NCBI GenBank assembly: GCA_027021615.1 | Contig: JALUTY010000034.1 | Coordinates: 62,001 to 126,000 of the forward strand | Direction: 5' to 3' | DNA from: a bacterium | GTDB taxonomy: Bacteria > Desulfobacterota > Deferrisomatia > Deferrisomatales > Deferrisomataceae | Length of the DNA: 64,000 nt | Shown: positions 37,515 to 55,470 of the stretch, piece by piece | Position numbering within the stretch: the first letter of the stretch is position 1 | Layout: the number at the start of each line of letters is the position of its first letter | Translations under genes and position numbers: made by a program | The notes under the pieces: model-generated | The model's input: only the letters and a program-made list of their open reading frames with translations | What the model was told of the DNA's origin: nothing | Database searches by the model: none

Positions 37515-37668
37515 GGGCACTCCTTTGCCGTCTCGGGTGTGTGTTTGCCCGGAAAAGGGGCCCGTCGTTTCCCCTCAACCGGTCGCAGAGAGGTGTGGGC
37601 GGTCGCCGGGTTCCAGGTCGCCAAGGGAAAAAGGCGAGGATCGCGCCTCGTCGGGCACAGGGGGAGGG

Positions 37669-38668: not shown

Positions 38669-38669
38669 C

Positions 38670-40007
38670 CTACATCACCTCGGGGAACATCTCGACCAGA
38701 CGGCCCACCGCCTGCTCCAGGGTCCATGACTCCTCGATGCCCTGGGTCAGAAACTCACGCATGGCCTCACGCTTCTCCAAGGCCTCGTCCACGAGCGGGT
38801 TCGAGCCTTCCCGGTAGGCCCCGATGTTGATCAGGTCCTCGGCCTCCCGGTATGCGGCCAACAGGCCTTTCATGCGGGCGACGGCCTGGCGGTGGCGAGG
38901 GGACGCCACCTCCATCATCAGCCGGCTGGCCGAGGCGAGCACGTCAATGGGGGGATAGTGGTTGCGGGCCGCCAGATCTCGCGACAGCACCACGTGGCCG
39001 TCCAAGATTGAGCGCACGGTGTCTGCCACGGGGTCGTTCATGTCGTCCCCCTCCACCAGAACCGTGTACAGCCCGGTGATCGAGCCTTTCCCCCCCTCCC
39101 CCATCCCGGCCCGCTCCATCAGCCGGGGCAGGGCCGCGAACACGCTGGGCGTGTAGCCTTTGGTGGTGGGAGGCTCTCCGATGGCCAGCCCCACCTCCCG
39201 CAGGGCCATGGCGAACCGGGTCACCGAGTCCATCAGCAGGAGCACGTCCATCCCCTGGTCCCGGAAGTACTCGGCGACCGTGGTGGCCACCAGGGCCCCC
39301 CGAGCCTTGACCAACGGGGACTTCTCCGAGGTGCTCACCACCACCACCGATCGGCGAAGCCCCTCCTCCCCTAGGTCCCGCTCGATGAACTCCCGCACCT
39401 CGCGGCCCCGCTCGCCGATCAGGGCGATCACGTTCACGTCGGCCGAGGTGTTGCGGGCGATGATGCCAAGCGTGACGCTCTTTCCCACCCCGCTTCCGGC
39501 AAAGATGCCCATACGCTGGCCCTTGCCCAGGGTGAGCAGCCCATCGATTGCCTTGATCCCGGTGGACAGCGGGTCCTGGATCCGGGCCCGGGTGATGGGG
39601 TTGATGTCCCGGCCGTACAGAGGGTACTTCCGACGGCACCGGGCCGGTCCCTTTCCGTCGATGGGGTTTCCGGTGCCGTCAATGACCCGGCCGAGAAGCT
39701 CCTCTCCCACCTGGCACAGGCTCTGGGTGCGGGTGGCCACCACCCGGCTTCCCGGCTGGATGCCCCGCATCTCTCCGTAGGGCATCAGCAGGATCCGCCC
39801 CTCCCGAAACCCCACCACCTCGCACGGGATCGCCCGATCCCGCTCCAGCCCCCCCTGCTCCGGATACACGAGGCAGATGTCCCCCACCGGCGCCGCCGGC
39901 CCGGACGCCTCCACCACCATGCCCACCACCTGCAACACCTTGCCGTAGGGGCGCAGAAGGTCCGCCTCCCGGACCGCCTCGACCTGGGCCGCGAAGTCCA
40001 GCCCCAT
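38670..40007 (-). CDS. fliI: Flagellum-specific ATPase FliI
   Basis: A 445-residue F1-beta-like ATPase that powers and prepares substrates for export. Walker A is [46 protein letters not shown] and [20 protein letters not shown] are family signatures. The start is ATG at 40007 in a TGATG overlap with fliH; a GTG at 40010 is an alternative three bases from the GAAGGG site. Confidence 0.97.
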
Positions 40008-40753
40008 CACACGCCCTTCAGGACACGGACCAGCTCTTCCAGCTGGGTGTCCAGCCTCGCGTCGATCTCCGCCGTGGGCGTCTGAACCCGGCACCCTCCT
40101 CGGCCCACCGACGGATCCTCCACCACCGTGAGCTGGCGAATCCCGTCCACAGCTTCCAGCAAGGTGGGCTTGGCCTCCACTGCCACCTCTAGGTCGGCAG
40201 GGTGGACCCGTACCGTGACCTGCTCCCGATCGGCCAAGGCCTGTAGGGCCCGCCCCACCACGTGCACCACCGCCCCCTCACACTGCTCGGCGAGCGGCCC
40301 CAGCATCTTTCGTACCAGCTCCAGCACCAGATCCAGCACCTGGGCCCGTGCCTCTTCATACAGCCGGGGCTTCCATTCGGCCAGCTCCCGCAGCAGGGTC
40401 TCCAGGGCCTCGGTCCGCCCGGCCGCCTCTGCCAGGGCCTCCTCCCGGCCCTGTCGGGTTCCCTCCTCTCGGGCGGCCGCCCGGATCCTGCCGGCCTCCT
40501 CCCGGGCCCTCCGCAGAATCTGCTCGGCCTCCTCCTGGGCCCGTGACCGGGGGTCGGGAGGGGCAGGCCCCTCGGCCGGCTCCTGGGGATCGGCCACGAC
40601 CTTTGCGCCTTGGGGCTCGTCGGGGAGATCTTCGAAGGCCTGAGGCTCGAACCGGCGCACCCCCTCTCCTCCACCGGCCTGCGCCCCTCGGGCTCCGGGG
40701 TCCAGATCGGCCCATCGAAACGGTCGAATCGGGGGGGAGGACTTCTCGCCCAT
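40007..40753 (-). CDS. fliH: Flagellar assembly protein FliH
   Basis: A 248-residue peripheral stator of the FliI ATPase. The N-terminal half is Pro/Glu-rich; residues about 70-120 form an Arg/Glu/Ala coil ([20 protein letters not shown] with GxxxG-like spacing). The C-terminal V-type E-subunit-like domain includes [29 protein letters not shown] and [16 protein letters not shown] at 40753; 116 bases separate it from fliG, in which no gene is seen. Confidence 0.92.
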
Positions 40754-40869
40754 GGAAACCGATCCTTTTTTGCGAGGGGGCTGAACCAGTCGAAAAAAGG
40801 GCGGCGAGCCTCCCCCTCAAAGGGAGGGCGCGCCCGGAGAGTTCCCGCGGAGAGCCCTGTTGCCCCGCC

Positions 40870-41880
40870 TCAGATGTACTCGTCCTCGTCGCCCCCGGCG
40901 AGCACGACCACCCCCTCCTCTTCGAGCTGGCGTACGATCTCGGTGATCGTGGACTGGGCCTCGGTGACCTCGCTCACCCGGACCGGGCCCAGAAAGGACA
41001 TCTCCTCCTTGAGGGTCTCCACGGCTCGTGAGCTCATGTTCCGGAAGAACTTCTCCTGGAGGTCGGGGCTCGCGCCCTTCAGGGCCACCACCAGGGCGTT
41101 CTTGTCGACCCGCTTCAGGATCTCCTGGATCGCCTTGTCGGGCAGGTACTGGATGTCGTCGAACACGAACATGAGCTGTCGGATGTGGGCGGCGAGCTCC
41201 GGGTTCTCCTGCTCCATGCGGTCCAGAATGTTCTTGGACTCGGTGCGGCCCATCCGGTTCAGGATCTCGGCCACGGTCTTTACCCCCTGGACCTCAATGG
41301 AGGAGCCGGCCATGGATGCGATCTTTTTGTCCAGGATCTCGGAGACCTTCTTCACCACCTCCGGGCTGATCTCCTCCAGGCTCGCCATCCTCCGGGCCAC
41401 CTCTACCTGCAGCTCGCTCGGCAGGCTCGAGATGGCGTGGGCGGCCTTGGCCGCGTCCAGGTGGGACAAGATGAACGCGATGGTCTGGGGGTGCTCCTTC
41501 TGGATGATCTTGCTGAGCAGGCGTGGGTCCGCCTTGCGCAGGTTCTGGAAGCCCGGGCCCTGGTCCAGGTACTTCACCAACCGCTCCAGGATCTCCCGGC
41601 ATCTCTCGGGGGGCAGGCTCTTACGCAGGATCTTCTTGGCGAACTCCACCCCCCCTTGGAGAACGTAAGACCGGGCCAGGGCGAGGGTGTGGAACTCCTC
41701 GATCACCGCCTCCGCCTCTTCCGGGCTGGCCTTCTCGAGCACGGCCACCTCCCGGGTGATTTCCTGGATCTCCTCGTCCCGCAGGTGCGGGAACAGGGCC
41801 TCCGAGGCCTCCTCCCCCAGGGCCACCAGGAGGATCGCCGCCTTGCGCAGCCCCGGGATCTCTTGGACGTCCTGCGCCAA
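40870..41880 (-). CDS. fliG: Flagellar motor switch protein FliG
   Basis: A 336-residue rotor protein. The N-terminal FliF-binding domain (GLRKAAILLVALGEEASEAL), middle domain with HPQTIAFILSHLDAAKAA, and C-terminal torque domain (MFVFDDIQYLPDKAIQEIL, VALKGASPDLQEKFFRNMS) are complete, including the charged residues that meet the stator. It follows fliF by three bases. Confidence 0.97.
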   Translation of the reverse strand: MAQDVQEIPGLRKAAILLVALGEEASEALFPHLRDEEIQEITREVAVLEKASPEEAEAVIEEFHTLALARSYVLQGGVEFAKKILRKSLPPERCREILERLVKYLDQGPGFQNLRKADPRLLSKIIQKEHPQTIAFILSHLDAAKAAHAISSLPSELQVEVARRMASLEEISPEVVKKVSEILDKKIASMAGSSIEVQGVKTVAEILNRMGRTESKNILDRMEQENPELAAHIRQLMFVFDDIQYLPDKAIQEILKRVDKNALVVALKGASPDLQEKFFRNMSSRAVETLKEEMSFLGPVRVSEVTEAQSTITEIVRQLEEEGVVVLAGGDEDEYI

Positions 41881-41883
41881 CGC

Positions 41884-43482
41884 TCACTCCTCCGTCAGCC
41901 AGCTTCGGATCAGCTGAGCCGCCACCTCGGGCTCACGCCGGATCATCTCCACCAGACGCTGCTTCAGCAGCTCGCGGCGCACCGCCTCGGTGGGGGTCTT
42001 CTCTTCGATGTGGACCTCTTCCTCCTCGGCCTCCCCTTCGAGGCGTTTCTCCATCTCGGCTACGGTGACCGGTTCTGTGATCTCGGGCGCCTCGGGCGCA
42101 CGGGTAAGCCACCGCACCAACGGTTTGAGCACCCCAAACACGATGAGCACGGCCAGCACGAGAATCAGGCCGTAACGCATGTACGGAAGGAGGTCGGGTG
42201 AGGTCCACCACGGACCGGCCCGGGCCACCTCCACCTCCCCCGGCTGGAACGGGATACTGGTCACCTCGACCGCATCCCCCCTCTGGGGATCGACTCCCAC
42301 CGCCTTCTCCACCAGAGCCTTGAGCCGTGAGAGTTCCTCGTCCGACCGGGGCACGAACTCCCGTCCGTTCTCCCCCTCCCGGTACGTGCCGTCCACGGCC
42401 ACGGCCACCGACAGACGTTTCAGGTTGCCAGGCCCCCTCTCCAGCCGGGTAATCCGCTTCGAGACCTCGTAGTTGACCGTCTCGGTCTCCCGGCTCGATG
42501 CGCCTCCTTTGCCCGTCGCCTGACCGGCGGTCCCCTGGCCCACGTTGGAGGCCACCCCCGGAACCCCCGCAGGCCCGGCCGGGCCCGTGGTGGTCTCGCT
42601 CACTCGCTCCTCGCTCCGGACCGCCACCCCCTCGGGGTCGTAGGTCTCGGCCGTCTCCTCCACCCGGGAGAAGTCGAACTCAGCCGCCACCTGAACCACC
42701 GCGCTGCCCGCGCCCAGCATCCGCTCCAGCAGGGCCCGCACCCGGCGTTCCACGTCCTTTTCGAACGCCCGTTTGTACTCCAGCTGGCTTGCGGCCAGGA
42801 ACCCGGGCTCGTCCCCCTCCTGCCGGTACAGCACATTGCCCCGGGTGTCGACCACGGTGACCCTCTCCGGCGACAGTCCCTCCACGCTCGACGACACCAG
42901 GTACACTACGCCGCGGACCTGCTTCGCGGTGAGGGATCGGCCGGGAGCCAACTGGAGCACCACCGAGGCCGAGGCGGGCTCTGCCTCGGTCTCGAACAGC
43001 TTCTTTTCGGGGAGCACCAGGTGGACCCGCGCTCCCTGCACCCCCTCCATGTGGCGGATGGTGCGAGTGAGCTCCCCCTCCAGCGCCCGGCCGTAGTTGA
43101 CCTTCTGGGCAAAGTCGGTCATGCCGAAGCTCGACCGGTCGAAGATCTCGTACCCCACCAGGCCTCCCTGGGGGATCCCCTCGCCGGCCAGCTGGAGCCG
43201 GATCTCGTACACCCGGTCCGAGGGTACGAACACGGCTGTCCCCCCCGCCTCGAGACGGTAGGGGACTCCCTCGGCCTTCAGCTTTTCCACGACTTGGTAG
43301 GCGTCTTCGGGGGCGAGTCGACTAAACAGGAGGGTGTACTCAGGCGTACCGGCCCACAGCACCAAGGCTGTGAGGCCGGCCAGGAGGACAGCGGTCACCC
43401 CTACGAGGGTGAGGCGCTGGGTTAGGGTGAGCCTGCCCCACAGCTCCCGTGCTTGGGCCAGGCTGGCGTCCCCAAAGGCCAT
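41884..43482 (-). CDS. fliF: Flagellar M-ring protein FliF
   Basis: A 532-residue protein that forms the MS ring. The first membrane helix (LVGVTAVLLAGLTALVLW) is followed by YTLLFSRLAPEDAYQVVEKL and the ring-building domain (GLVGYEIFDRSSFGMTDFAQ). The large periplasmic domain holds VEDTRG-like VVDTRGNVLY and YKRAFEKDVERRV. A second helix (YMRYGLILVLAVLIVFGVL) precedes the cytoplasmic FliG-binding tail. It is preceded by 107 bases of non-coding DNA after fliE. Confidence 0.97.
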   Translation of the reverse strand: MAFGDASLAQARELWGRLTLTQRLTLVGVTAVLLAGLTALVLWAGTPEYTLLFSRLAPEDAYQVVEKLKAEGVPYRLEAGGTAVFVPSDRVYEIRLQLAGEGIPQGGLVGYEIFDRSSFGMTDFAQKVNYGRALEGELTRTIRHMEGVQGARVHLVLPEKKLFETEAEPASASVVLQLAPGRSLTAKQVRGVVYLVSSSVEGLSPERVTVVDTRGNVLYRQEGDEPGFLAASQLEYKRAFEKDVERRVRALLERMLGAGSAVVQVAAEFDFSRVEETAETYDPEGVAVRSEERVSETTTGPAGPAGVPGVASNVGQGTAGQATGKGGASSRETETVNYEVSKRITRLERGPGNLKRLSVAVAVDGTYREGENGREFVPRSDEELSRLKALVEKAVGVDPQRGDAVEVTSIPFQPGEVEVARAGPWWTSPDLLPYMRYGLILVLAVLIVFGVLKPLVRWLTRAPEAPEITEPVTVAEMEKRLEGEAEEEEVHIEEKTPTEAVRRELLKQRLVEMIRREPEVAAQLIRSWLTEE

Positions 43483-43589
43483 GGACTAGGCTCTCATCCG
43501 GATTTCTGGGTTCGGTTCGGTCTCCTCCCCCTTAGTTTCCGGGTTCTGCGGCCGAATTTCCAGTGGCAATTGCGCCCTCCCCGGGCCGG

Positions 43590-43874
43590 CTATACCTGCA
43601 TCCGCATGATCTCCTGGTAGGCGTCCAGGATCTTCTGGCGCACCTCCATCATCAGCTTGAACGCCACGTCGGCCTTTTCCACCGCCACCATGGCCTCCTG
43701 GATGTCCCCCCCGCCCTGGGCGGCGCGGGTCACGGCCGCGTCCGCCTCCTGCTGAAGGGTGTCGACCTTCTCCAGGCTCTCGGCCAAAAACTCGCCGAAG
43801 TCCTTGGACGGCTTGGCCGAGGCCTTGGCCCCGGGGGCCTGGGGCAGGCCGACCCCTGCGATCTCCTTCACCAT
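43590..43874 (-). CDS. fliE: Flagellar rod-MS ring junction protein FliE
   Basis: A 94-residue protein. FGEFLAESLEKVDTLQQEAD, MVAVEKADVAFKLMMEVRQK and ILDAYQEIMRMQV at the end are diagnostic. FliE links the MS ring to the rod. Two ATGs are possible; 43874 has a better distance from the GGGAGGGAG site than 43880. Confidence 0.95.
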   Translation of the reverse strand: MVKEIAGVGLPQAPGAKASAKPSKDFGEFLAESLEKVDTLQQEADAAVTRAAQGGGDIQEAMVAVEKADVAFKLMMEVRQKILDAYQEIMRMQV

Positions 43875-43900
43875 GGCCATCTCCCTCCCGGGCCGTCCGG

Positions 43901-44326
43901 TCAGATCTCCAGGGCCCGCAGCAGCATGTTCTTGGTGGCCTCGATCACGGTCACGTTCGCCTCGTAGGAGCGGGCTGCGCTCAGAAGGTTCACCATCTCC
44001 ACGGGAACCTCCACGTTGGGGTAGGCCACGAACCCCTGGGTATCGGCGTCGGGGTGCCCCGGCTCGTAGCGTAGCCGCGGGGGGCTCGGGTCCTCCACAA
44101 CGTCTGCCACCCGAACCCCCCGTACGGCCCCGGCCAACACGTCGTCAAAGGCACGAGCCACCGGGGTGGCCTCGAACACCACGTCCCGCCGGCGGTACGG
44201 TCCCCCTTCGGGGGTACGCGTGGTCTGGGCGTTGGCCAGGTTCGACGCCACGGCCTCCATGCGGGATCTCTGCGCCGCGAGGGCCGAAGCGGACACGTCC
44301 ATCACTCGGAACCACCCGCTGTTCAT
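43901..44326 (-). CDS. flgC: Flagellar basal-body rod protein FlgC
   Basis: A 141-residue proximal rod protein. RMEAVASNLANAQTTRTPEG is the rod signature near the N-terminus; GFVAYPNVEVPVEMVNLLSA with ARSYEANVTVIEATKNML forms the C-terminal helix. ATG at 44326 overlaps the flgB stop (ATGA). Confidence 0.96.
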   Translation of the reverse strand: MNSGWFRVMDVSASALAAQRSRMEAVASNLANAQTTRTPEGGPYRRRDVVFEATPVARAFDDVLAGAVRGVRVADVVEDPSPPRLRYEPGHPDADTQGFVAYPNVEVPVEMVNLLSAARSYEANVTVIEATKNMLLRALEI

Positions 44327-44718
44327 GGTGTGGGCCTCCCTGTGATCGCTTCCTTGAGCTTGCGGAACCGGCTGCCAAGCACTCGCGTCAGGAACTGGTA
44401 CTCGATCTGGTTCTGCGCGATCTTGGCCATCTCTCGGTCGATATCCACGTCGTTCCCGTCGCGTCGCGGCGTTCCTCCCGCCGCTACCACCGTCTGCCGG
44501 CCGGCACCCCTGGTGCCCCCGAGATGGCGCGGATCGGTGGCGGCCAACCGCAACCCCTGACGAGCCATGGCCCGATCGAACCGAACGTCCAGGGCTTGGT
44601 ATCCCGGCGTGTCCGCGTTGGCCACGTTGGCCGCCAGCACCGCCTGCCTGCGCTGACGGTAGCGCAGCTCCTCCACCAGCGGCCCCACGACCCCTTCCAT
44701 CGCTCGAAGAAACCCCAC
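44323..44718 (-). CDS. flgB: Flagellar basal-body rod protein FlgB
   Basis: A 131-residue rod protein. RQRRQAVLAANVANADTPGY is the rod signature, and DREMAKIAQNQIEYQFLTRV the C-terminal helix. GTG at 44718 is chosen over ATG at 44700 because GGAGGAGAGG lies just before it and the resulting spacing to the rod signature is normal for FlgB. It is the first gene of the flgB-to-flgE operon, 45 bases after the expected start of a sigma-54 promoter. Confidence 0.94.
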   Translation of the reverse strand: MGFLRAMEGVVGPLVEELRYRQRRQAVLAANVANADTPGYQALDVRFDRAMARQGLRLAATDPRHLGGTRGAGRQTVVAAGGTPRRDGNDVDIDREMAKIAQNQIEYQFLTRVLGSRFRKLKEAITGRPTP

Positions 44719-44772
44719 CTCGCCTCTCCTCCGTGCCCGTCGCCTCTTCCGGTCGCTCCGGGTCGAGACCCT

Positions 44773-44789
44773 TGCAAGGACGAGGCCAG
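44773..44789 (-). promoter_or_regulatory. Sigma-54 promoter of the flgB-flgE operon
   Basis: On the minus strand CTGGCCTCGTCCTTGCA has the invariant GG and GC ten bases apart, with TGGC at -24 and TTGCA at -12. The start of transcription should be near 44761, leaving about 43 bases to the flgB GTG. The -12 box lies within CCTTGCAAGG, and a second CTTGCAAGG is 57 bases upstream (44828-44836), also with a GG ten bases before its GC. The FleR-like activator gene is just upstream. Confidence 0.75.
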
Positions 44790-44877
44790 CCACCCCGTCC
44801 CGCCCGGTTGTCCGAGCTTTCGTGCTTCTTGCAAGGCCGTCTCCCCCCACAGGTCCGGTTTCTCCCCCCCGGGAGGG

Positions 44878-46218
44878 TCAGCCCTCTCCCCCCGGATCGG
44901 TCCCTTCCACCCCGTAGGTCTTGAGCTTGGCCCGCAGGGTCTTCACGTTGATGCCCAGGGCCCGGGCCGTGGCCTTCTTGTTGTGACCGTGCTGGGCATA
45001 CGCGGCCAGGATGATCTTTCGTTCCATCTCGTCTAAAGTCCCGTCGACCCGGATCCCGCCCTCCGGGCGGAGAGCGGCCTCCTCCAGGAACAGGTGCTCC
45101 GGCCCCACCTGCCCGCCCCGGCAGATCACGGCCGCCCTCTCCACCGCGTTCTGCAGCTCCCGGACGTTGCCCGGCCAGTCGTGGGCCAGCAGGACCTTCT
45201 CCGCGGCCGACGTGAGGGTGGCCTCCCCCAACCCATACGCCCGACAGGCAGCGGCCAGGAAATGCCTCGCCAGGGGGAGGATGTCCCTGCGACGCCCCCG
45301 GAGGGGCGGCACCTGGATCGGGATCACCTGGAGCCGGTAGTACAGATCCTCCCGGAACCGACCCCGGCGCACCTCCTCGGGCAGGTCCCGGTTCGTTGTG
45401 GCCACCACCCGGAGCTCCAGCGGAATCGTCCTGCGTCCCCCCACCCGCTCCACCTCCCGCTCCTGGAGCACCCGAAGGAGCTTGGCCTGCAGCGCCGGCT
45501 CCATCTCACTCACCTCGTCCAGCAGCAGGGTTCCCCCCTGGGCCTGCTCGAACCGGCCCGGCCGGGCCTCGGAGGCCCCGGTGAACGCGCCCTTCTCGTG
45601 GCCGAACAGCTCGCTTTCCATGAGATTGGCCGGGATCGCCGCGCAGTTTACCCCCACGAACGGCCCCTCGGCCCACGGGGAGAGCTCGTGGATTCTGCGG
45701 GCCACCACCTCTTTCCCCGTCCCGCTCTCACCGGTGATCAGCACGGTGGCCCTGGTGGCCGCGGCCGCATCCACCAGGCCCAGCACCCGCTCCATGGCCG
45801 GGTCCTCGGCCACGAACGGTGTTCGAGGCCTTCCCCTCCGAGGGGCCGCCGGCCGCCCCAGCACCGCGGACACCTTGGCGAGCAGCACGTCCGGGCCAAA
45901 CGGCTTCTGCAGAAAATCCACGGCGCCCCGCTTCATACTCTCCACGGCCGCGTCCACGGAGCCGTGGGCCGTGATCACCAGGGCGGGGGTGTGGGGCGCG
46001 GCCGCGCTCATCCGCTCCAGCAGCTCGATCCCCCCCACCCGGGGCATGCGCAGATCGGTCACCACCAGATCGAACCCCTGCCGCCGCACCAAGTCCAACG
46101 CCTCCTGCCCGTCCGCGGCCAGGGTGCATTGGTACCCGGCCTTGCGCAGGGTGAGCTCCAGCGCCAGGCGCATGTCCGGGTCGTCGTCCACCACCAGCAG
46201 ATGCCTTGCGTTGCTCAC
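44878..46218 (-). CDS. fleR: FleR/FlgR-like sigma-54-dependent response regulator
   Basis: A 446-residue NtrC-type activator. The receiver domain (VVDDDPDMRLALELTL, Asp in LVVTDLRMPRVGG, Lys in DFLQKPFG) leads to an AAA+ domain with ITGESGTGKEVVARRIHELS, the GHEKGAFTGASE loop, TLLLDEVSEM, REDLYYRLQVIPIQVPPLRGR and DWPGNVRELQNAVE. The C-terminus is a Fis-like helix-turn-helix (HGHNKKATARALGINVKTL). It probably switches on flagellar sigma-54 promoters such as that before flgB, in response to the kinase encoded at 46433. The kinase gene is upstream on the same strand, separated by a repeat-filled gap. Confidence 0.9.
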   Translation of the reverse strand: MSNARHLLVVDDDPDMRLALELTLRKAGYQCTLAADGQEALDLVRRQGFDLVVTDLRMPRVGGIELLERMSAAAPHTPALVITAHGSVDAAVESMKRGAVDFLQKPFGPDVLLAKVSAVLGRPAAPRRGRPRTPFVAEDPAMERVLGLVDAAAATRATVLITGESGTGKEVVARRIHELSPWAEGPFVGVNCAAIPANLMESELFGHEKGAFTGASEARPGRFEQAQGGTLLLDEVSEMEPALQAKLLRVLQEREVERVGGRRTIPLELRVVATTNRDLPEEVRRGRFREDLYYRLQVIPIQVPPLRGRRRDILPLARHFLAAACRAYGLGEATLTSAAEKVLLAHDWPGNVRELQNAVERAAVICRGGQVGPEHLFLEEAALRPEGGIRVDGTLDEMERKIILAAYAQHGHNKKATARALGINVKTLRAKLKTYGVEGTDPGGEG

Positions 46219-46240
46219 CGAGCAATCTCCGTTCGGGAAC

Positions 46241-46395
46241 TGGGAAGCTAGAAAGCTGGGAGGCTAGGAAGCCCAAACCCTCTTTGCTGCCTGAGCGTTC
46301 CAGACACAACCACGCCTCTGGGCCACCCTCTCACGCTCCGGGGGCACGAGGTCTGTGGGAGAGCCGCGCGCGGCCGGAAGCGGGCCCCATGCCCC
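46241..46395. repeat. Repeat blocks between fleS and fleR
   Basis: Bases 46241-46348 (GCTAGAAAGCTGGGAGGCTA, then CCTCTTTGC, GACACAACC, CACCCTCTCACGCTCCGGGG) match 33571-33687 in the same orientation. Bases 46361-46395 (GCCGCGCGCGGCCGGAAGCG, then GGCCCCATGCCCC) are an inverted copy of 28971-29000 and 33781-33812. The remaining bases to 46432 show no gene. The insertion splits what is normally an adjoining kinase-regulator pair. Confidence 0.65.
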
Positions 46396-46432
46396 GTCCG
46401 ACGAGAACTCTCGGTTTGAACGCGACTCGGTA

Positions 46433-47650
46433 TCACGGTTCGGGGGGCGTGGCCCTCAGCCGGTCCGCCGGGAACGACAGGGTGAACCGGGCTCCTCCCC
46501 AGGGGGAGCCGTCCACTGCCACCCAGCCGCCGTGGGCCGCCACGATCCGCTGGACGATGGCGAGCCCCAGCCCCACCCCCCGGGCCCGGGTGGTGTAGAA
46601 CGGGTCGAAGATCCGCTCCCGCTCCTCCTCCGGCACTCCCGGGCCGTTGTCCCACACGCACACCCGCGCCGCCGCAGGCTCCTCGGAGCCCCCCGACGCG
46701 CACTCCACCCGAACCCTCCCTCCCGCTTCCACGGCCTGGGCCGCGTTGAGCATAACGTTCAGCAGGGCCTGGCGGACCAGGTCCGGGTCCACCCGCACCG
46801 GCGCCGGACAAAGGTCCTCCTCCAGGATCGCCCCCTTGGCTCGGATCGCTGACCGAGCGTAGACAGCCGCCTCGGCCACCACCTCACTCAGGTCGACCGC
46901 TTGACACCGCGGCTCAACCTGCCGCGCAAACAGAAGCAGGTTCCCCGTGATCCGGGAGAGGTTTTGGAGCCCCTTGAGCACCTGACCCGCGAGGTCCTCG
47001 TGGGCTGTGCCCCGCAGCTCCCCCACCAGGTGGTGGGCGAACAGCTCCAGGCTGCCCAGTGGGTTCCGGATCTCGTGGGCGATGCCGGCGGCCATCTGGC
47101 CCATGGCCACCAAGCGCCGGTTCCGCTCCTCCTGCTCCTCGAGCAGCCGCAGGCGGGTCACATCCTGGAACACCACCACCCGTCCCAGCACCTCCCCGAC
47201 CTCCCCGCGGAGAGGCGACACCCGAAGCCCCAACAACACCCTGCGGCCGTCACCCCGGTTCAGGGTGACGACCGGCCTCGAAACGGCCTCCAGCGCGTCG
47301 AGATCGGCCTCGGCCGGGTCCTCGAACCGGAACACCTGGGAGAACGGCTTCCCCACGGCCTCCGGTCCGAACCCCGTGATCTCCTGGGCAGCCCGGTTCA
47401 GAGTCGAGATCCGGCCCTCCGGGTCCACGGCCACCACCCCGCTGGGCACGCTCTCCAACAGGTGCTCCAGATAGCTCGTGAGGCGGGCCCTCTCCGTCAG
47501 GGAGCGGTCCAGCTCCCGGTCCTTCGCCTCCAAGCGCCTGCGGAGCTCTCGCACCTCGTCCTGGAGCCTGGCGTACGATCCCTGGAGCCGTTCGGTGGCC
47601 TCTTGGAACCTCAGCATTGCCTCCCGAAGCTCCTCGGGGATCGCGGTCAC
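46433..47650 (-). CDS. fleS: FleS-like PAS histidine kinase
   Basis: A 405-residue soluble kinase without membrane segments. A coiled coil (about residues 8-60) precedes a PAS domain (LLESVPSGVVAVDPEGRIST...NRAAQEITGFGPEAVGKPFS). The HisKA motif is AAGIAHEIRNPLGSLELF, and ATPase boxes are LLNVMLNAAQAVEAGG, VWDNGPGVPEEE, FDPFYTTRARG and VGLGLAIVQRI. It is closest to FleS/AtoS-type kinases working with NtrC-like partners, here the FleR-like regulator. GTG start overlaps the TPR gene stop (GTGA). Confidence 0.88.
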   Translation of the reverse strand: MTAIPEELREAMLRFQEATERLQGSYARLQDEVRELRRRLEAKDRELDRSLTERARLTSYLEHLLESVPSGVVAVDPEGRISTLNRAAQEITGFGPEAVGKPFSQVFRFEDPAEADLDALEAVSRPVVTLNRGDGRRVLLGLRVSPLRGEVGEVLGRVVVFQDVTRLRLLEEQEERNRRLVAMGQMAAGIAHEIRNPLGSLELFAHHLVGELRGTAHEDLAGQVLKGLQNLSRITGNLLLFARQVEPRCQAVDLSEVVAEAAVYARSAIRAKGAILEEDLCPAPVRVDPDLVRQALLNVMLNAAQAVEAGGRVRVECASGGSEEPAAARVCVWDNGPGVPEEERERIFDPFYTTRARGVGLGLAIVQRIVAAHGGWVAVDGSPWGGARFTLSFPADRLRATPPEP

Positions 47651-49668
47651 CGCCGTCCCTCCCGAATCAGGAGTGCCTCGGCCCCTGCCAGGGCCCGAGC
47701 CGCGCCGGACACCACCGCATCCCGCGTCTCGGCCAGCTCGGCCCAGGCGGCCCGAGCCCCCTGCCCGTCGCCGCTTGCCATGGCCGCCATCGACCGAAAC
47801 AGCCGGTCCACCGGTTCGCCCCCCTCCGCCGGCATCAGGCTCAAGGCTTCCGCGTAGCGGCCCAGGGCAAAGGCCAAGCGCGCCCCTGCTACCCTGCTGG
47901 GAGCGGGAAGGCCGCGCCTCCGGTCGGCGCCCAGGCTCCTCCACAGCTCCTGCCGGACCCGCCAGGCCCGGAGCAGGTCCTGGGTCCGCGCTTCGCGCCT
48001 CCCCACCCGGTCCATCTCGATCCGCAGCGCGTATCGGGTGGCAGCGTCCGGCGCCAATGCCAGCGCCTGCCGGAACGCCTTCAGGGCTGCGGACCGGTCC
48101 TCCTGGGCCTCCTGCACCCGAGCCAGGGCCAGCCAGGCCCGCCAGTCCCTGGGCCGCTCGGCAGCCCAGCGGGCCACCGCCGCCGGGTCCCCCTCCCGGG
48201 CTCGGAGGCGCAGCGCCGCAACCTCGGCCCGCTGGGCCGGCACAGCCCGGCTCCCCATGGCCTTCACCTCACCATAAAGCTCCAGCGCCCGGTCCCAGGC
48301 ACCCAGCGCCTCGGCCGCCCGGGCCGCCTCCCAGACCAAGGCCCCGAGGTCCCGGGTGGGCACCCATGCGGCGGCACCCCGAAATCGTTCGAACAGCAGG
48401 ATCCCGGCCGCCGGGTCCCCGTCCCGAACGAGGGCCGCCAGCCGGGCTTCCAACAGCGACACGAACGCCTCGTAGGCTCGGCCGGACTCGGGGCTCTCCG
48501 GATAGTCTCGGAACACCCGTTCCAAGAACCCGAGGGCTGCTTCCGCGTCCCCCTCGGACCGGGCCAGCTCGGCCAGCCCTTGCAGGGCCCGCTGGGCCGT
48601 CAGGGGGTCTCGACCCCCGGCCAGCTCCTCCAGCACCGGTCGCGGGCGGTAGAACCACCGGTACGCCGGGTACGGCTCGGTCAGCTCCACCCGGTCGGCG
48701 AACCGAACCCCCAACAGAGCCAGCCGAAGCCGGGCCTCCCGGGCCGCCTCGGCCGGAGCCGGGCCGTCCAGCAGACGCGCGTAGGCGGCCGCTGCCCGGC
48801 TCACCCGTCCCTCCTTCGTCCATAGGGCTCCAACGGCCAGGAGGGCCTCCGCACCCTCGGCCGTGCCCGGGTGCACCCGGGCCAGCGACTCCAGAACCTC
48901 TGCCGCAGTATCCGCATCACCCGCCGCCTGAAACGCCTCGGCCATCGCCCGGGCCGTGTCGCTCCGGACCCGCCACGCGTCCGGGTCGAGCCTGCGAGCC
49001 TCCCGGAACCGCGCCAGGGCGTCGGCAGTGGCTCCCGCCCGCCACAGGCTCTCCCCCCACAGGTACAGGGCCACCACCCGACCGGGCGCCCGTGGATACG
49101 CGCGGACCCAGGCCTCCCAGGCCGCGACCGCCTCTGGGGTCCGGCCCGCCTCCAGCGCCAGGGCCGCCTGGTCGAACCGTAGCGCCCGCCGCCACGGCTC
49201 CCGGCTGCTCGGCGTGGCCTGCTCATACGAGGTGATCGCCGCCTCCGGAAACCCCTGGATCCACTGCACGCTCCCCAGCTGGAACCAGCACCAAGCCGTC
49301 TGCTCGGGGGACAGCTTTTCCTTCACAAGGGTCCGATACAGCCGCTCCGCCTGCCACAGGGTGTCCTGTCCGGCCAGATAGAGGGCGTCGGCCCACAGCC
49401 CCCGCAGCCGCGCCGGAGCCCCTACCGCACCGGCCGCCTTTCCCAACACCCGGGCCACCCGCGCCGGGTCCTTCTCCAAGGTGCGGCCTGCCTCGGCCCA
49501 CAGAGCCTCCCGTCCCGGGGGCGGGCCGGCTCGCAGGAACGGGCTCCACCCGGGCTCCACCCGGGCGAGCACCACCGCCCGGCTCGGCAAGGCTGCCCCC
49601 AGCACGGCCGAGACGGCCAGGGCCAAGGCAAGCCGGCCGCGACCCGCCCGGCCCCGTCCTGCGATCAT
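47647..49668 (-). CDS. Large TPR-repeat protein in flagellar cluster
   Basis: A 673-residue protein with a signal-like N-terminus (LALALAVSAVLGAALPSRA) and then many TPR-like helical pairs, for example AERLYRTLVKEKLSPEQTAW, EAAITSYEQATPSSREPWRR, ADALARFREARRLDPDAWRV, and AALGFLERVFRDYPESPESG. No enzymatic domain is seen. It is probably periplasmic. Its position between flhG and fleS, with an ATGA overlap to flhG and GTGA overlap to fleS, ties it to flagellar assembly or sensing, perhaps as a scaffold for outer rings or as input to FleS. The role is inference. Confidence 0.75.
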   Translation of the reverse strand: MIAGRGRAGRGRLALALAVSAVLGAALPSRAVVLARVEPGWSPFLRAGPPPGREALWAEAGRTLEKDPARVARVLGKAAGAVGAPARLRGLWADALYLAGQDTLWQAERLYRTLVKEKLSPEQTAWCWFQLGSVQWIQGFPEAAITSYEQATPSSREPWRRALRFDQAALALEAGRTPEAVAAWEAWVRAYPRAPGRVVALYLWGESLWRAGATADALARFREARRLDPDAWRVRSDTARAMAEAFQAAGDADTAAEVLESLARVHPGTAEGAEALLAVGALWTKEGRVSRAAAAYARLLDGPAPAEAAREARLRLALLGVRFADRVELTEPYPAYRWFYRPRPVLEELAGGRDPLTAQRALQGLAELARSEGDAEAALGFLERVFRDYPESPESGRAYEAFVSLLEARLAALVRDGDPAAGILLFERFRGAAAWVPTRDLGALVWEAARAAEALGAWDRALELYGEVKAMGSRAVPAQRAEVAALRLRAREGDPAAVARWAAERPRDWRAWLALARVQEAQEDRSAALKAFRQALALAPDAATRYALRIEMDRVGRREARTQDLLRAWRVRQELWRSLGADRRRGLPAPSRVAGARLAFALGRYAEALSLMPAEGGEPVDRLFRSMAAMASGDGQGARAAWAELAETRDAVVSGAARALAGAEALLIREGRR

Positions 49669-50531
49669 CGCGACCCCCCAGCCGTGAGCCGTTGCCAGAA
49701 CCGGGCAACCCCTCTGCCTCCCCCTCCTTTTCCCCCCAGCAGCGCGTCGGCCAAAGCCGCCACGCACCGCGATGCCGGGCAGCGGGGGTACGCCGACACG
49801 AACGCCACCTGGCGCAGGGCGGCGCGCCGCACGTGGTCGTCCTGAACTACAAACCCGGCCCAGTCCACCCTCCGGCCTAAAAAACGCTGGACCACCCGGT
49901 CGAGCCGATCGTGGATCGCCCGGGCCGCCGCCTCGTCCCCCGCGCCGTTCACCACCGCAGCCACCCGGGCGTCCGGATCCCGGCTCCACAGCACCTTGAT
50001 CAACCCGTAGGCGTCGGTGAGCGCCGTGGGCTCTGCGTTGGTCACCACCCACACCTCCCCTGCCGCCGCGCACAGATCCACCACGTTTCGCCCGATGCCG
50101 GCCGCCGTGTCGATCAGAAAGAACTCGGTCCCCTCGGCCAGGCGGCCCGCCTCGTGCACCAGCCTCGCCCGTTGGGCCGGGTCCAGATCGGCCATCTCCC
50201 CCACTCCCGAGGCGCCCGGGATGATTCGGAGCCCCGGTACCACCTCCACCGGGATCTCCTCGGCCGGGGCCTCCCCCCGCAGCAGGTGCCCCAGGTTCCG
50301 AGGGGGGTTGAGGTTCAGCAGGATGTCCAGGTTGGCCAGCCCGAAGTCCGCGTCCAGCACGGCGACCGAGCGGCCTCGGCCCGCGAGCGAGACGGCCAGG
50401 TTGGCCACCAGGCTCGTCTTCCCCACCCCTCCCTTCCCGCTGGTCACGGCCAGGACCCGGGCGCCGTCCGTGGGGGCGGGACCGGCCTGCTCGGTGACCA
50501 TCTGGCGGAGCCGGTGCGCCTGGTCCCTCAC
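49665..50531 (-). CDS. flhG: MinD-like ATPase FlhG/FleN
   Basis: A 288-residue P-loop ATPase that limits flagellar number, often together with FlhF. The deviant Walker A is VTSGKGGVGKTSLVANLAVS; VLDADFGLANLDILL, LIDTAAGIGRNVVD and VTNAEPTALTDAYGLIK are typical of the FleN/YlxH branch. FleN also restrains FleQ-type activators, which here might be the FleR-like protein. It overlaps flhF by four bases upstream and the TPR gene downstream. Confidence 0.95.
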   Translation of the reverse strand: MRDQAHRLRQMVTEQAGPAPTDGARVLAVTSGKGGVGKTSLVANLAVSLAGRGRSVAVLDADFGLANLDILLNLNPPRNLGHLLRGEAPAEEIPVEVVPGLRIIPGASGVGEMADLDPAQRARLVHEAGRLAEGTEFFLIDTAAGIGRNVVDLCAAAGEVWVVTNAEPTALTDAYGLIKVLWSRDPDARVAAVVNGAGDEAAARAIHDRLDRVVQRFLGRRVDWAGFVVQDDHVRRAALRQVAFVSAYPRCPASRCVAALADALLGGKGGGGRGVARFWQRLTAGGSR

Positions 50532-51763
50532 GATGCCCCCTCCAGCCCCCGCACCAGGTACGCCGCCACGCCGACGGGGGTGGCCTCTTCGATGTCGTCG
50601 GGCACGTTCTGCCCCGTCGTCAGGTAGCTCAGGGGGAGTCGGGAGACCAGCGGCAGCCCCAGGAGCGGCCCGTGGCAGTCGGTCTCGTCCAGCTTGGTGA
50701 GCAGAAGCCGGGCCGGCTCGAGCAGCGCATAGTGGCGCAGGATCCGCGCCAGGTCCTGGCCCCGGGTCGTGACCGCCAACACCAGGTACACCTCGATCTC
50801 CACGTCGGGGGGAAACAGCCCCAGCAGCTCGGCCAAGCTCTCCTCGTCCCGGGGGCTCTGACCCGCGGTGTCCACGAGCACAAGCTCCCGGTCCGAAAAC
50901 CCCTCGACCGCGTCCAGAAACGATCCCCGGTCCAGGGCCACCCGCAGCGGCACCCCCATGATGTTTGCGTAGGTCTTGAGCTGCTCCACGGCCGCGATCC
51001 GAAAGGTGTCCACCGTCAGCAGGCCCACCCGACGCCCGTCCTGCAGGGCGAACCGAGCCGCCAGCTTGGCCACGGTGGTGGTCTTTCCCACCCCGGTAGG
51101 GCCCACGAACACAGCCACCCGGGGCCGCCCGTTGCCGGGACGCAACGGGCCCGACACCCGGACCGTCCGGGCCACCAGCTCCCGGAACGCGGCCACCTCC
51201 CGGCCGGCCGGCACCGCCCCTTGGTCCACTTTCTGCTGAAGGAACCCCAGCACCCGGGCGGTCAGGGCCGGATCCACGTCGATGGCTTCCAAGTGATCGT
51301 GGATGCGCCGCAGCCCGGGAGCCAAGCGGAGCCGCTCGAACCGGGCCGTCTCCTCCAGCAGCCGCTCCACCTTGGCCACCAGGCCCCGCACCTCGGAGGC
51401 CACCCCGTCCACGGGCGTACGACGAGGTCGGCGGGCAAGGAGGTCAAGCTCCTCCCTGAGGCTGTCGATGTCGGCCTGGAGGGCCAGGATTACCCCCGAG
51501 TCGGCGCCGCCCCCCCGGATGTCAGGGTCCCGCCGGGGGGGCTCGGCTGGGCCCGGGGCGCCGGTCGGCGCGGCCTTGCGCGACAGGCCACCCAGGTCGG
51601 CCGCGGCCGTCACCTCCAGAATCGGACGACCCAACAGGCCGAACACCCCTTTGCCCGGCTTGATCTGCCGGGTCGACAGGATCACGGCGTCCGGCCCGAG
51701 CTCCTCCTTGATCTTGCGGAGGGCCTCGGCCATGTCCACGGCCTGGAACTTCCTAACCTTCAA
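50528..51763 (-). CDS. flhF: Flagellar SRP-like GTPase FlhF
   Basis: A 411-residue protein that fixes the polar position of the flagellum. KVRKFQAVDMAEALRKIKEE is the family N-terminus, followed by a B domain (Gly/Pro/Arg-rich) and N domain. The GTPase motifs are VFVGPTGVGKTTTVAKLAAR, LLTVDTFRIAAVEQLKTYA, LVDTAGQSPRDEES and LTKLDETD. It overlaps the end of flhA by 11 bases. Confidence 0.96.
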   Translation of the reverse strand: MKVRKFQAVDMAEALRKIKEELGPDAVILSTRQIKPGKGVFGLLGRPILEVTAAADLGGLSRKAAPTGAPGPAEPPRRDPDIRGGGADSGVILALQADIDSLREELDLLARRPRRTPVDGVASEVRGLVAKVERLLEETARFERLRLAPGLRRIHDHLEAIDVDPALTARVLGFLQQKVDQGAVPAGREVAAFRELVARTVRVSGPLRPGNGRPRVAVFVGPTGVGKTTTVAKLAARFALQDGRRVGLLTVDTFRIAAVEQLKTYANIMGVPLRVALDRGSFLDAVEGFSDRELVLVDTAGQSPRDEESLAELLGLFPPDVEIEVYLVLAVTTRGQDLARILRHYALLEPARLLLTKLDETDCHGPLLGLPLVSRLPLSYLTTGQNVPDDIEEATPVGVAAYLVRGLEGAS

Positions 51764-53849
51764 GGCTCACCATCCGGATCGTTCGGATTGGACCCTCCAC
51801 CTCGTTGTGACTCAGCACCACCAGGCTCGGCAGTACCCGCTCGGTGAGCTTGCGCAGCGGCAACCTCAGGGCCGGAGAGGTCAGCACCACCGGTGTCAGG
51901 TTCTCCAGGGTGGCGGCCTCGGCCGCACGGCCGAGGGCCGTGAGCACCTGCTGGGCCACCGTCGGCTCCAGCGACAGGAACGACCCGTGCTCGGTCCTCT
52001 GTACCGCCGCCAGCAGGGTCTCTTCGAGCCGGTGATCCAGGGCGATGACGGGGAGCTTCCCTTCGGCATCCTGGTACTGCTTGGTGATGGCCCGCCGCAA
52101 GGCGGCGCGGACGTACTCGGTGAGGGGCTCTGGGTTCTTCGTAACGGACGCGTAGTCGGCCAGGGTCTCGAGGATGGTGCGCAGGTCGCGGACGCTCACC
52201 CGCTCCCGCAGCAGGTTCTGGAGCACCTTCTGCACCACCCCCAGGGGCAACAGCCCCGGCACCAGCTCCTCCACCAGGGCCGGGGCCTGCTCCTTGACCA
52301 CGTTCAACAGGTTCTGGGTCTCCTGGCGCCCCAGCAGCTCGTGGGCGTTCTGTTTGATGATCTCGGTCAGGTGGGTGGCGATGACGGTGGAGTGGTCCAC
52401 CACCGTGTACCCCTTGATCTGGGCCTCCTCCCGGAGCTCCTCGCGGATCCACAGGGCGTCCAGCCCAAAGGCGGGCTCCTTGGTGGGAATGCCCTCGAGC
52501 CCAGCCTCCCCCAGCCCCGGGTTCATGGCGAGGAGGTACCCTTCCTTCAGCTCCGCCCGGGCCACCTCGATCCCCTTGATCAGGATCATATACTCCCCCG
52601 GTCGCAGCTGAAGGTTGTCGCGAATGCGGATCGGGGGCACCACGATGCCCGCTTCTAGGGCGATCTGCCGCCGGATCGAGCGGATCCGCTCCAGCAGGTC
52701 CCCCCCCTGGGCCGCATCCACCAGGTGCAGGAGGCCGTACCCCACCTCCAGCTCCAGCACGTCCACCTGGAGCAGGGGGGTCACGTCCTCCGGGCCAGGG
52801 GGGGCTGCCGGTGCCTTCTCCGCTTCCTGGCGCGCCACCTCCTCCTTCCGACGGGTCTCGGCCTCACGCACCCTCTTCAGGCTGTAGGCCGTACCCCCCA
52901 GCACCGCGGCCAGCACCGCGAACGGAAAGAACGGCAGGCCGGGCACCACCCCCAGCACCAGCAGCACCCCGCCCGCCACCCCCAGAGCCTCGGGCACCTG
53001 CCCCAGCTGACGGGGAAGAACCTCGCCCAGGTTCGACTGGCTCCCGGCACGGGTGACCAGGATGCCCGCGGCCGTGGAGATGATTAGGGCGGGCATCTGG
53101 CTCACCAGGCCGTCCCCCACGGTCATGGTGGTGTAGGTACGTACCGCCCGGTCCAAGGGCATGCCCAGCTGGAGCACCCCGATCACCAGCCCACCCAGGA
53201 TGTTGATGCCCGTGATCACCAGGCCCGCGATGGCATCTCCCCGAACGAACTTGCTCGCCCCGTCCATGGCGCCGTAGAAGTCCGCCTCCCGGGCGATCTC
53301 CTCGCGACGGTTCCGCGCCTCGGTCTCGTCGATCAGGCCCGCGTTCAGATCGGCGTCGATCGCCATCTGCTTGCCCGGCATCGAGTCCAGGGTGAACCGG
53401 GCGCTCACCTCCGCGATTCGGGTCGCTCCCTTCGTGATCACCACGAAGTTGATCACCACCAGGATCAAGAAGATGACGATCCCCACCACGAAGTTGCCGC
53501 CCACCACGAACGACCCAAACGCTGCGATGATCCTGCCGGCGCCCTCGATCCCCTTGTCCCCCTCGGTCAGGATCAGACGGGTCGACGAGATGTTGAGGGC
53601 GAGACGAAACAACGTGGTAATCAGCAGCACGCTGGGGAACAGGGAGAAATCCAGCGGCCGTTCGGTGTACATGGCGAGGAGAAAGATCAGGACCGAGAAG
53701 CTGATGTTGAGGGCCAGCAGAAGGTCCAGCACGGCCCTCGGCAGGGGGAGGATCATGAGGAAGACGATGCTCATGACCCCGGCCGCCACCAGCACTCCGC
53801 TGTGGCGGTTCAGCAAGCCGGGTACCGACAGGGTGGCTCCTCGGTCCAT
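51753..53849 (-). CDS. flhA: Flagellar export gate protein FlhA
   Basis: A 698-residue protein with about eight membrane helices in the first half and a large cytoplasmic domain. The FHIPEP signature region FRLALNISSTRLIL, then FVVGGNFVVGIVIFLILVVI, SARFTLDSMPGKQMAIDADL and FYGAMDGASKFVRGDAIAG are all family hallmarks. The nonameric cytoplasmic ring binds chaperone-substrate complexes. ATG at 53849 has a distant GGAGG only, so initiation could rely on coupling. cheX starts 107 bases upstream. Confidence 0.97.
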   Translation of the reverse strand: MDRGATLSVPGLLNRHSGVLVAAGVMSIVFLMILPLPRAVLDLLLALNISFSVLIFLLAMYTERPLDFSLFPSVLLITTLFRLALNISSTRLILTEGDKGIEGAGRIIAAFGSFVVGGNFVVGIVIFLILVVINFVVITKGATRIAEVSARFTLDSMPGKQMAIDADLNAGLIDETEARNRREEIAREADFYGAMDGASKFVRGDAIAGLVITGINILGGLVIGVLQLGMPLDRAVRTYTTMTVGDGLVSQMPALIISTAAGILVTRAGSQSNLGEVLPRQLGQVPEALGVAGGVLLVLGVVPGLPFFPFAVLAAVLGGTAYSLKRVREAETRRKEEVARQEAEKAPAAPPGPEDVTPLLQVDVLELEVGYGLLHLVDAAQGGDLLERIRSIRRQIALEAGIVVPPIRIRDNLQLRPGEYMILIKGIEVARAELKEGYLLAMNPGLGEAGLEGIPTKEPAFGLDALWIREELREEAQIKGYTVVDHSTVIATHLTEIIKQNAHELLGRQETQNLLNVVKEQAPALVEELVPGLLPLGVVQKVLQNLLRERVSVRDLRTILETLADYASVTKNPEPLTEYVRAALRRAITKQYQDAEGKLPVIALDHRLEETLLAAVQRTEHGSFLSLEPTVAQQVLTALGRAAEAATLENLTPVVLTSPALRLPLRKLTERVLPSLVVLSHNEVEGPIRTIRMVSLEG

Positions 53850-53955
53850 GGGTCGCGGGGCGCGCCTCCGAAGGCGGGGGGAGGGATCCGCTCGCAGCGG
53901 CCCGAATGTATCACACACACCGGGCGGATGGCAGACCCCGGCGGCGCCTGTCGGC

Positions 53956-54432
53956 CTACGCCTCCCGGCCGGGTAGGAAGCTCACCTCCACCCAGAACGT
54001 CTCCCCGTCCATCTCGAACGGCACCACCAGGCACGGCCCCTGCCCCTTGTGCTCAATGGTGTGGTTCTTCCCCACCACGATCGTGGGGATGGCGATGCGG
54101 AACTGGTACCCCTCCTTCGTCAGCGCGGCCTTGGCTCCGCCGGCGATCATGTTGGCGATCTCTCCCACGGCGTCCCGAACGTCGTCGTTCAGCCCCCGTG
54201 CCTCTTCACCAACCATCGCCTCGTACACCTTGAGGGCCAGGTTCTCCGGGAAGGTCACGGCCACCGAGCCCACGGCTTCGCCGGCCAACCCGATCACCCC
54301 GCTGATGTCGCCGGCCGCTACGTGATCTGTTTTCACGAACGGCTTTCCCCGTTCTGGCTTCATCCCGGCCATGACCTCCAGGGCCTGCACCGTGGCCGCG
54401 ATGAACGGATTGATGTACTCCACGCTGTACAT
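53956..54432 (-). CDS. cheX: CheX-family CheY-P phosphatase (second copy)
   Basis: A 158-residue phosphatase, paralogue of the protein encoded at 21068. The catalytic motif is VGEIANMIAGGAKAAL, and IPTIVVGKNHTIEHKGQG and FEMDGETFWVEV follow. It lies 15 bases after cheY, so the kinase output and its dephosphorylation are made together. Both copies keep the ExxN residues. Confidence 0.92.
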   Translation of the reverse strand: MYSVEYINPFIAATVQALEVMAGMKPERGKPFVKTDHVAAGDISGVIGLAGEAVGSVAVTFPENLALKVYEAMVGEEARGLNDDVRDAVGEIANMIAGGAKAALTKEGYQFRIAIPTIVVGKNHTIEHKGQGPCLVVPFEMDGETFWVEVSFLPGREA

Positions 54433-54447
54433 GGGAGATCCTCGAGA

Positions 54448-54807
54448 TCAGGCCGCCAATACTCGTTCGATCTTCTCTTTCAACGTGTCGGGGGTGAACG
54501 GCTTCACGATGTAGTCCGTGACCCCCGCCTTGATCGCCTCCAGAATCTCCTTCTTGGCGGCCTCGGTGGTCACCATGATGATCGGGATCTCCTTATACTG
54601 GGGGTTGGACCGGAGGGCCTTGACGAAGGTCAAACCGTCCATCTCCGGCATGTTCCAATCGGTCAGCACCAGCCCCACACCCGCCATCTTCGCCAGACCG
54701 TCCACCCCATCCTCCGCCTCGACCACGTCCGTGTAACCGAGGCGGTTCAGGGTGTTCTTGATGATGCGCCGCATGGTCGAGGAATCGTCAACCGTGAGGA
54801 TCTTCAC
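54448..54807 (-). CDS. cheY: Chemotaxis response regulator CheY
   Basis: A 119-residue single-domain receiver. VDDSSTMRRIIKNTLNRLGY carries the acidic pair; the acceptor Asp is in LVLTDWNMPEMDG, the switch Thr in VTTEAAK, and the Lys in DYIVKPFTPDTL. When phosphorylated by CheA it would bind the motor switch. GTG start with AGGAGG seven bases upstream. A near-consensus sigma-28 promoter stands 48 bases before the start and may also drive cheX and flhA. Confidence 0.96.
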   Translation of the reverse strand: MKILTVDDSSTMRRIIKNTLNRLGYTDVVEAEDGVDGLAKMAGVGLVLTDWNMPEMDGLTFVKALRSNPQYKEIPIIMVTTEAAKKEILEAIKAGVTDYIVKPFTPDTLKEKIERVLAA

Positions 54808-54854
54808 CGTCCAAACCTCCTACTTGGAACTGGGTGTGTGCGAGTTGGTCCTAC

Positions 54855-54881
54855 TGATCGGCCCCCCGAACCGAAACTTTA
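54855..54881 (-). promoter_or_regulatory. Sigma-28 (FliA) promoter of cheY
   Basis: On the minus strand the -35 is TAAAGTTT (54874-54881), the spacer is exactly 11 bases, and the -10 is GCCGATCA (54855-54862). This differs by one base from the enterobacterial FliA consensus (TAAAGTTT-N11-GCCGATAA). The expected start is near 54848, about 40 bases before the cheY GTG at 54807. Confidence 0.85.
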
Positions 54882-54999
54882 GGTCCCCGCGCCCCTGCTC
54901 CCGGTTTGTGCCCCGAGGTCGGTTCCGGTACATTCTCCGGCCTTCGGCGCCGCCCGAACCCCACGGCACCCATCCCGATCTCCGGAGGGAATGGCACCC

Positions 55000-55470
55000 A
55001 TGGACCGCTCCTACCCCTTAAACGTCCGGTTCCTCCGGCGCGTGCTCATCGCGGCCGACGATCTGGCCCACTTCGCCGTGGCCCTGGTGCTGCTGGTCTG
55101 CGCCGGGGTCGTGCTCGTCCGGGCCGTCCTACAACTGGGAGACCCGAGCTTGGCCTCTGTGCTCGAGGTCCTCAACGACCTGCTCCTGGCTCTCATCATC
55201 ATGGAGCTCCTGTGGCCCGTGGTGCGGTTCCTGAAGCGGGAGCCGTTCAGCCTGAGCCCATTCCTGTACGTGGGCATCATCTCGAGCACCCGGCGCATCC
55301 TCCTGATCGAAGCCGAGAGCTCCCTGGCCTCCCGCGCCCACGGGGGGGAGTGGAGCACCCTCTGGCCCCCGCTGGTGGAGATCGGGGGCAACGTGGCGGT
55401 GATCTTTGTGCTGGCCGTGGCGCTCCGTATCATCTCGGGACCCCGGCCCTCCTCCGCGGACCCGGCATGA
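55000..55470 (+). CDS. PsiE-like phosphate-starvation-inducible membrane protein
   Basis: A 156-residue membrane protein with four hydrophobic helices (VALVLLVCAGVVLVRAVLQL, LNDLLLALIIMELLWPVV and others). It resembles the PsiE family, of unknown biochemical function. ATG at 55000 is preferred because GGAGG at 54984-54988 is too close to the ATG at 54991. It is followed 92 bases later by the GT2 gene and may or may not be co-transcribed. Confidence 0.75.
   Translation: MDRSYPLNVRFLRRVLIAADDLAHFAVALVLLVCAGVVLVRAVLQLGDPSLASVLEVLNDLLLALIIMELLWPVVRFLKREPFSLSPFLYVGIISSTRRILLIEAESSLASRAHGGEWSTLWPPLVEIGGNVAVIFVLAVALRIISGPRPSSADPA

Follow-up and report, generated by a model that had tools for sequence, protein, structure and literature searches.

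The question raised by this locus is how far downstream a promoter for the flagellar sigma factor FliA (sigma-28) exerts its influence. In a 64-kb stretch of DNA (64,000 nucleotides, here called the window) from a member of the class Deferrisomatia, a preliminary description had noted a near-perfect sigma-28 promoter before cheY, which would place cheY, and perhaps cheX and the structural gene flhA downstream, in the late flagellar class, although flhA is normally an early gene. We favour a scheme, to which we assign a probability of about 0.82, in which cheY and cheX are transcribed from the FliA promoter, the unit headed by flhA is transcribed earlier from its own promoter, and a sigma-54 promoter operates at flgB. 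For a class that has been little studied, this would amount to a flagellar gene order open to testing: the flhA-flhF-flhG-regulator unit comes early, sigma-54 acts at flgB, and FliA serves cheY, motA and flagellin.

On the minus strand, positions 54881-54855 read TAAAGTTT-CGGTTCGGGGG-GCCGATCA, that is, a -35 and a -10 element separated by 11 nt, and are followed by GTAGGACCAACTCGCACACACCCAGTTCCAAGTAGGAGGTTTGGACG and the GTG start codon of cheY at 54807, 47 nt from the box. Compared with the FliA consensus TAAAGTTT-N11-GCCGATAA there is a single mismatch (15 of 16 bases) and the spacing is exactly 11. When up to three mismatches are allowed the window contains two FliA sites where 0.01 are expected, and none of 100 shuffled sequences contained two; the whole genome gives 11 matches to the FliA pattern and 2 to a reversed control pattern. 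For a weight matrix, 11 other motility sites from this class served as training set, with the sites at cheY and those between flgE and fliL excluded. Genes at the three training sites from this genome were named by Pfam and those at the other eight by eye from translations, motA of G002 and G003 being named from an out-of-frame translation. The matrix places the cheY box at the top of the window with 28.3 bits, ahead of a second FliA-like site (23.9 bits) and the next position (16.0 bits), while among 200 simulated sequences of 64 kb, scored only at positions with a GT..CG core, the highest score was 18.5 bits. The near-perfect promoter is borne out by these values.

The preliminary description had named a genome without fliA as grounds for giving up this promoter. 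A fliA gene is present at C98:63111-63788 (L012), where the match to TIGR02479 (FliA_WhiG) scores 267.3 bits (cut-off 189.6), so that objection falls away. The best solved chains for the protein are 6pfj_A (198 bits, named only "RNA polymerase sigma factor"), FliA 6pmi_F (181 bits) and 1rp3_A (142 bits). The gene lies directly before fliM, away from the flhF-flhG cluster. FlgM scores above its cut-off at two places in the genome, and rpoN is also present. FliA boxes elsewhere in the genome precede genes for flagellin, a methyl-accepting chemotaxis protein (MCP) and motA, forming a coherent motility regulon, and another precedes a Polysacc_synt_2-family gene for polysaccharide synthesis. Three further boxes (L005, L007 and L008) precede genes for an ABC-substrate-binding/PAS protein, an AAA ATPase and a SpoIIE-type phosphatase; each has a counterpart in both G001 and G002, and these genes are possible additional members of the FliA regulon. 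Counterparts with at most three mismatches are found in G002 for 7 of the 11 sites, namely those of cheY, MCP, flgE-fliL, motA and the L005, L007 and L008 genes, while the flagellin and L010 sites have none within three mismatches in G001 or G002. Two of the 11 (L009 and L011) look like chance matches.

The gene behind the box, cheY (54448-54807, minus strand), has a GTG start and an AGGAGG ribosome site and matches Response_reg with an E value of 6.6e-29; its best CheY model, PRK10610, gives 133.5 bits, under the cut-off of 189. Downstream on that strand, after a gap of 15 nt, comes cheX (53956-54432), encoding a CheY-P phosphatase (NF041094 CheX, E 4.5e-23, under the curated cut-off), and the two very probably form one unit, in keeping with the proposal that both stand under a FliA-type promoter. 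On the plus strand, TACATT at 54929-54934 resembles the -10 element found before flhA; it lies upstream of a divergent PsiE-like gene (54991-55470) and may be the promoter of that gene.

To follow the box through relatives we used 12 genomes of the class, seven with flhA and five without. A box lies upstream of cheY in all seven flhA-bearing genomes, at 47 to 92 nt from the start codon (G000, the present genome, 47; G001 and G002, 48; G007, 52; G004, 76; G005, 81; G003, 92). The three sampled members of the genus (G000, G001 and G002) each show one mismatch, the boxes being TAAAGTTT/GCCGATCA in G000 and G001 and TAAAGTTT/GCCGATGA in G002. Four mismatches are found in G003 (TTTAGTTT/GCCGATCT), G007 (TCCAGTTT/GCCGATCT) and G005 (TCCAGTTT/ACCGATCA), and all six of these boxes have N11 spacing and share the core AGTTT-N11-CCGAT. 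The weakest site is that of G004, TCCAGTTC/GACGATCA, which has five mismatches and is seen at N12 spacing only. The near-perfect -35 is, from these sequences, a feature of this genus. The background, which includes some real sites, is approximately 0.004 sites per 200 nt at up to four mismatches and 0.01 N12 sites at up to five; the four-mismatch sites outside the genus, at variable distances from cheY, are not callable standing alone.

That the cheY box is a chance match is highly improbable. Such matches are no commoner than the reversed control in the five class genomes without flhA (128 against 154 at up to three mismatches), as would be expected of chance, but the seven with flhA contain 65 against 27, a comparison between groups whose base composition is unmatched; G005 taken by itself shows no enrichment (12 against 11). 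Against chance there is also the expectation of 0.01 for the window, in which this box is the best-scoring site, its position before a motility gene in a genome that encodes FliA, and its retention in relatives. The site is thus well supported, from sequence, as a FliA promoter for cheY-cheX, and an ordinary one, since cheY stands under FliA in E. coli too.

Whether flhA belongs with these two genes is a separate matter. flhA occupies 51753-53849 on the minus strand, with a start chosen by conservation, and its match to TIGR01398 (922.7 bits, above the cut-off) was obtained on the longer reading frame 51753-53918. The gap from cheX is 106 nt, with both genes on the same strand. A search for a further promoter between cheX and flhA, as the preliminary description had proposed, returned a candidate at 53915-53905, TGTGATACATT, which is the sole match to TGTGNTANNNT in the window. 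This pattern has 0.59 expected matches in 64 kb on both strands, and 42 of 100 shuffles contained one; a single match is therefore not rare, and it is place and conservation that carry the argument. TGTGnTAnnnT is kept in all six class genomes with a readable cheX-flhA gap, approximately 59-74 nt before flhA, as TGTGATACATT, TGTGGTACATT (twice), TGTGCTACATT, TGTGGTACAGT and TGTGGTAAGGT; the count leaves aside G005, where the flhA match is incomplete at its start. Extended -10 promoters of the sigma-70 type carry a TRTGnTATAAT-like motif, which this element resembles, and need no -35. A sigma-70 -35/-10 rule scan found no TTGACA at 16-18 nt in the gap and no matches across 51700-55200 or 33900-53899. 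Neither a sigma-54 promoter at up to two mismatches nor a terminator was found between cheX and flhA. In G004 these genes are 1.2 kb apart, with opposite-strand reading frames between them, that adjoining flhA being a pyridoxamine-oxidase-family gene, so dependence of flhA on the cheY promoter is improbable there. Judged on its sequence context, flhA very probably has a separate, earlier promoter, for which 53915-53905 is the candidate.

The short gaps on one strand and the lack of a terminator in the second of them would also suit a single long cheY-cheX-flhA-flhF-flhG unit with the FliA promoter as its main promoter and flhA as a late gene. A genome outside the class, G018 (L033), where a three-mismatch FliA-like box lies approximately 180 nt before flhA, can be cited in its favour. 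We nevertheless consider such a unit quite unlikely, given the extended -10 element in every readable gap and the separation of cheX and flhA in G004. In known systems FlgM holds FliA until the hook is complete, and with FlgM present here assembly could not begin if the export-gate and hook genes depended on FliA. In E. coli, where FliA-driven cheRBYZ lies before flhBA, neither RNA-seq nor RT-PCR pointed to cotranscription across the cheZ-flhB junction, and RT-PCR showed a slight increase there only when FliA was overexpressed (PMC4183435). The placing of flhA in the late class, as first stated, is thus unlikely, and a FliA box upstream of a cluster does not make all of its genes late. A variant compatible with our preferred reading is dual control, in which flhA has an early promoter and, as no terminator was found, would also receive FliA read-through that raises FlhA, FlhF and FlhG as filaments grow. 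Both promoter elements are there, and in E. coli the class 2 fliL operon responds to FlhDC and can also be driven by FliA (PMC4183435), but the coupling is lost in G004, so we hold dual control as a tentative reading, at clearly less than even odds.

The content of the flhA-headed unit bears on its place in the hierarchy. Behind flhA on the minus strand come flhF (50528-51763; TIGR03499, above cut-off), a gene for a MinD-like ATPase that is flhG by position (49665-50531; MinD models, under their cut-offs), a PAS/histidine kinase reading frame of uncertain start (46433-47944; AtoS-like, under cut-off) and a FleR/FlbD-like sigma-54 activator response regulator (44878-46218; NtrC/FlbD models, under their cut-offs). 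The unit also encodes a TPR protein and is followed by flgB. It looks early because it encodes FlhF, an FlhG-like protein and a sigma-54 activator, and we infer that it forms the top of the flagellar hierarchy. Beside the activator gene, a sigma-54-like -24/-12 element, TGGCCTCGTCCTTGCA (44773-44788, minus strand), lies approximately 55 nt before the likely GTG start of flgB (44718). GG-N10-GC precedes flgB in all four genomes examined, with scores of 10/12 in G002, 12/12 in G003, 11/12 in G007 and 9/12 here, the last being shared by many other positions in the window. Matches to the sigma-54 pattern number 16 in the window against 19.1 expected, which is no enrichment, so it is position and conservation only that speak for the sigma-54 assignments. 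Outside the window, an 11/12 sigma-54-like element (L231, C34:25529) lies just before a flgF-like match at C34:25142-25486, whose name and start are provisional.

In the scheme that we prefer, flhA, flhF, the flhG-like gene, the histidine kinase and the sigma-54 activator would be expressed earlier, from the extended -10 element whose conservation suggests this role, and a sigma-54 promoter before flgB would then serve the rod and hook genes. Once FlgM releases FliA, FliA-RNA polymerase would bind TAAAGTTT-N11-GCCGATCA and start transcription near 54848, so that cheY and cheX are transcribed after a leader of approximately 40 nt; the release step and the start point are modelled on the known FliA/FlgM system. 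Read-through from the cheY promoter would at most add to expression of the flhA unit.

The second FliA-like site of the window, detected by both pattern and matrix and supported by conservation, lies between flgE and fliL at 34247-34273 on the minus strand. It shares bases with the flgE stop codon, and a terminator-like hairpin of 13 pairs with a T-rich tail (34216-34246, minus strand) comes directly after it, with fliL approximately 650 nt beyond. The intervening 33560-34216 is a stretch without an assigned gene whose length varies within the genus; fliL is close behind the hairpin in G003, G004, G005 and G007. Box and hairpin occur together in all seven flagellated class members. The box begins with the TAA stop in four of them and is clear of the stop codon by 3, 3 and 10 nt in G001, G002 and G005, so the stop codon is no explanation there. 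At N11 spacing it has two mismatches in G000-G002; in the others it is found at N12 only, with three mismatches in G003, G005 and G007 and four in G004, and forcing these to N11 gives four to six. In G000-G004 the hairpin ends in a T-rich tail (CTTGTTTG); G005 and G007 have a weaker one (CTTGTG). A search of up to 700 nt beyond flgE gave no sigma-54 element scoring at least 10/12.

For folding the hairpin, FliA transcripts were taken to begin 7 nt after the box, a distance expected of such promoters. A start at this point would fall inside the 5' arm of the hairpin at which flgE transcripts would stop; FliA transcripts, missing a portion of the stem, would continue into fliL, fliO, fliP, fliQ and fliR (Bac_export_3, Bac_export_1) and on to flhB, cheB, cheR, cheA and cheW. 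The hairpin remaining after such a start has -10.2 to -25.4 kcal/mol compared with -26.5 to -32.6 kcal/mol for the whole, a loss of 44-62% in six of the seven genomes; escape is not an equally good explanation in all of them, because G007 loses only 19% (-25.4 of -31.4 kcal/mol). If true, and joined by read-through from cheY into flhA, this would give the export-gate genes on both units a late FliA boost. That FliA acts in this way on the export gate in flagellated Deferrisomatia, besides the late genes, seems to us rather improbable. A plain terminator beside a promoter that is weak or fortuitous would fit the same features, as would a short RNA dependent on FliA, of the kind described from E. 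coli untranslated regions (PMC10578931).

We also searched for flhA in 59 genomes, of which 34 were positive, and considered 30 loci, of which 23 belong to genomes outside the class. None of these 23 has a cheX or cheY match (E 1e-5) in flanks of up to approximately 1.5 kb, so in this sample the cheY-cheX-flhA arrangement seems confined to the class. The same does not hold for a FliA-like box upstream of flhA taken by itself: the G018 locus has one without cheY-cheX, and other outside-class loci have boxes with four mismatches. No paper on Deferrisoma flagella was evident by title among the matches listed, none of the papers that mention FliA, cheY, cheX, flhA and flhF together concerns this arrangement by its title, and a phrase search for promoters overlapping terminators returned no literature match.

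Several parts of the scheme have counterparts in known systems. The site before fliL resembles that of the class 2 fliLMNOPQR operon of E. coli, where, according to PMC4183435, a FliA site also precedes fliL and export genes and the fliL level is nearly equal without fliA (989 versus 980). Here, in contrast, a terminator-like hairpin directly follows the box and the unit runs on to flhB, cheB, cheR, cheA and cheW. In Geobacter sulfurreducens the flhA-flhF-(ParA)-fliA, flgB and fliL operons have predicted RpoN promoters (PMC2725144). The two share the grouping of flhA, flhF and a ParA/MinD-type gene and a sigma-54-type element before flgB, whereas here fliA is elsewhere, beside fliM, cheY-cheX precede flhA, and the search beyond flgE gave no sigma-54 element at the 10/12 threshold. 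A close likeness is to the tar-tap-cheRBYZ (meche) operon of E. coli, whose FliA box, TAAAGTTTCCCCCCTCCTTGCCGATAA in Table 2 of PMC4183435, is one base apart from the present one. There too cheY is under FliA and followed by a CheY-P phosphatase gene, cheZ, with flhBA downstream; in place of cheZ and flhBAE we find cheX and then flhA, flhF and the flhG-like gene, and the candidate extra promoter looks to be of the extended -10 type rather than FlhDC-activated.
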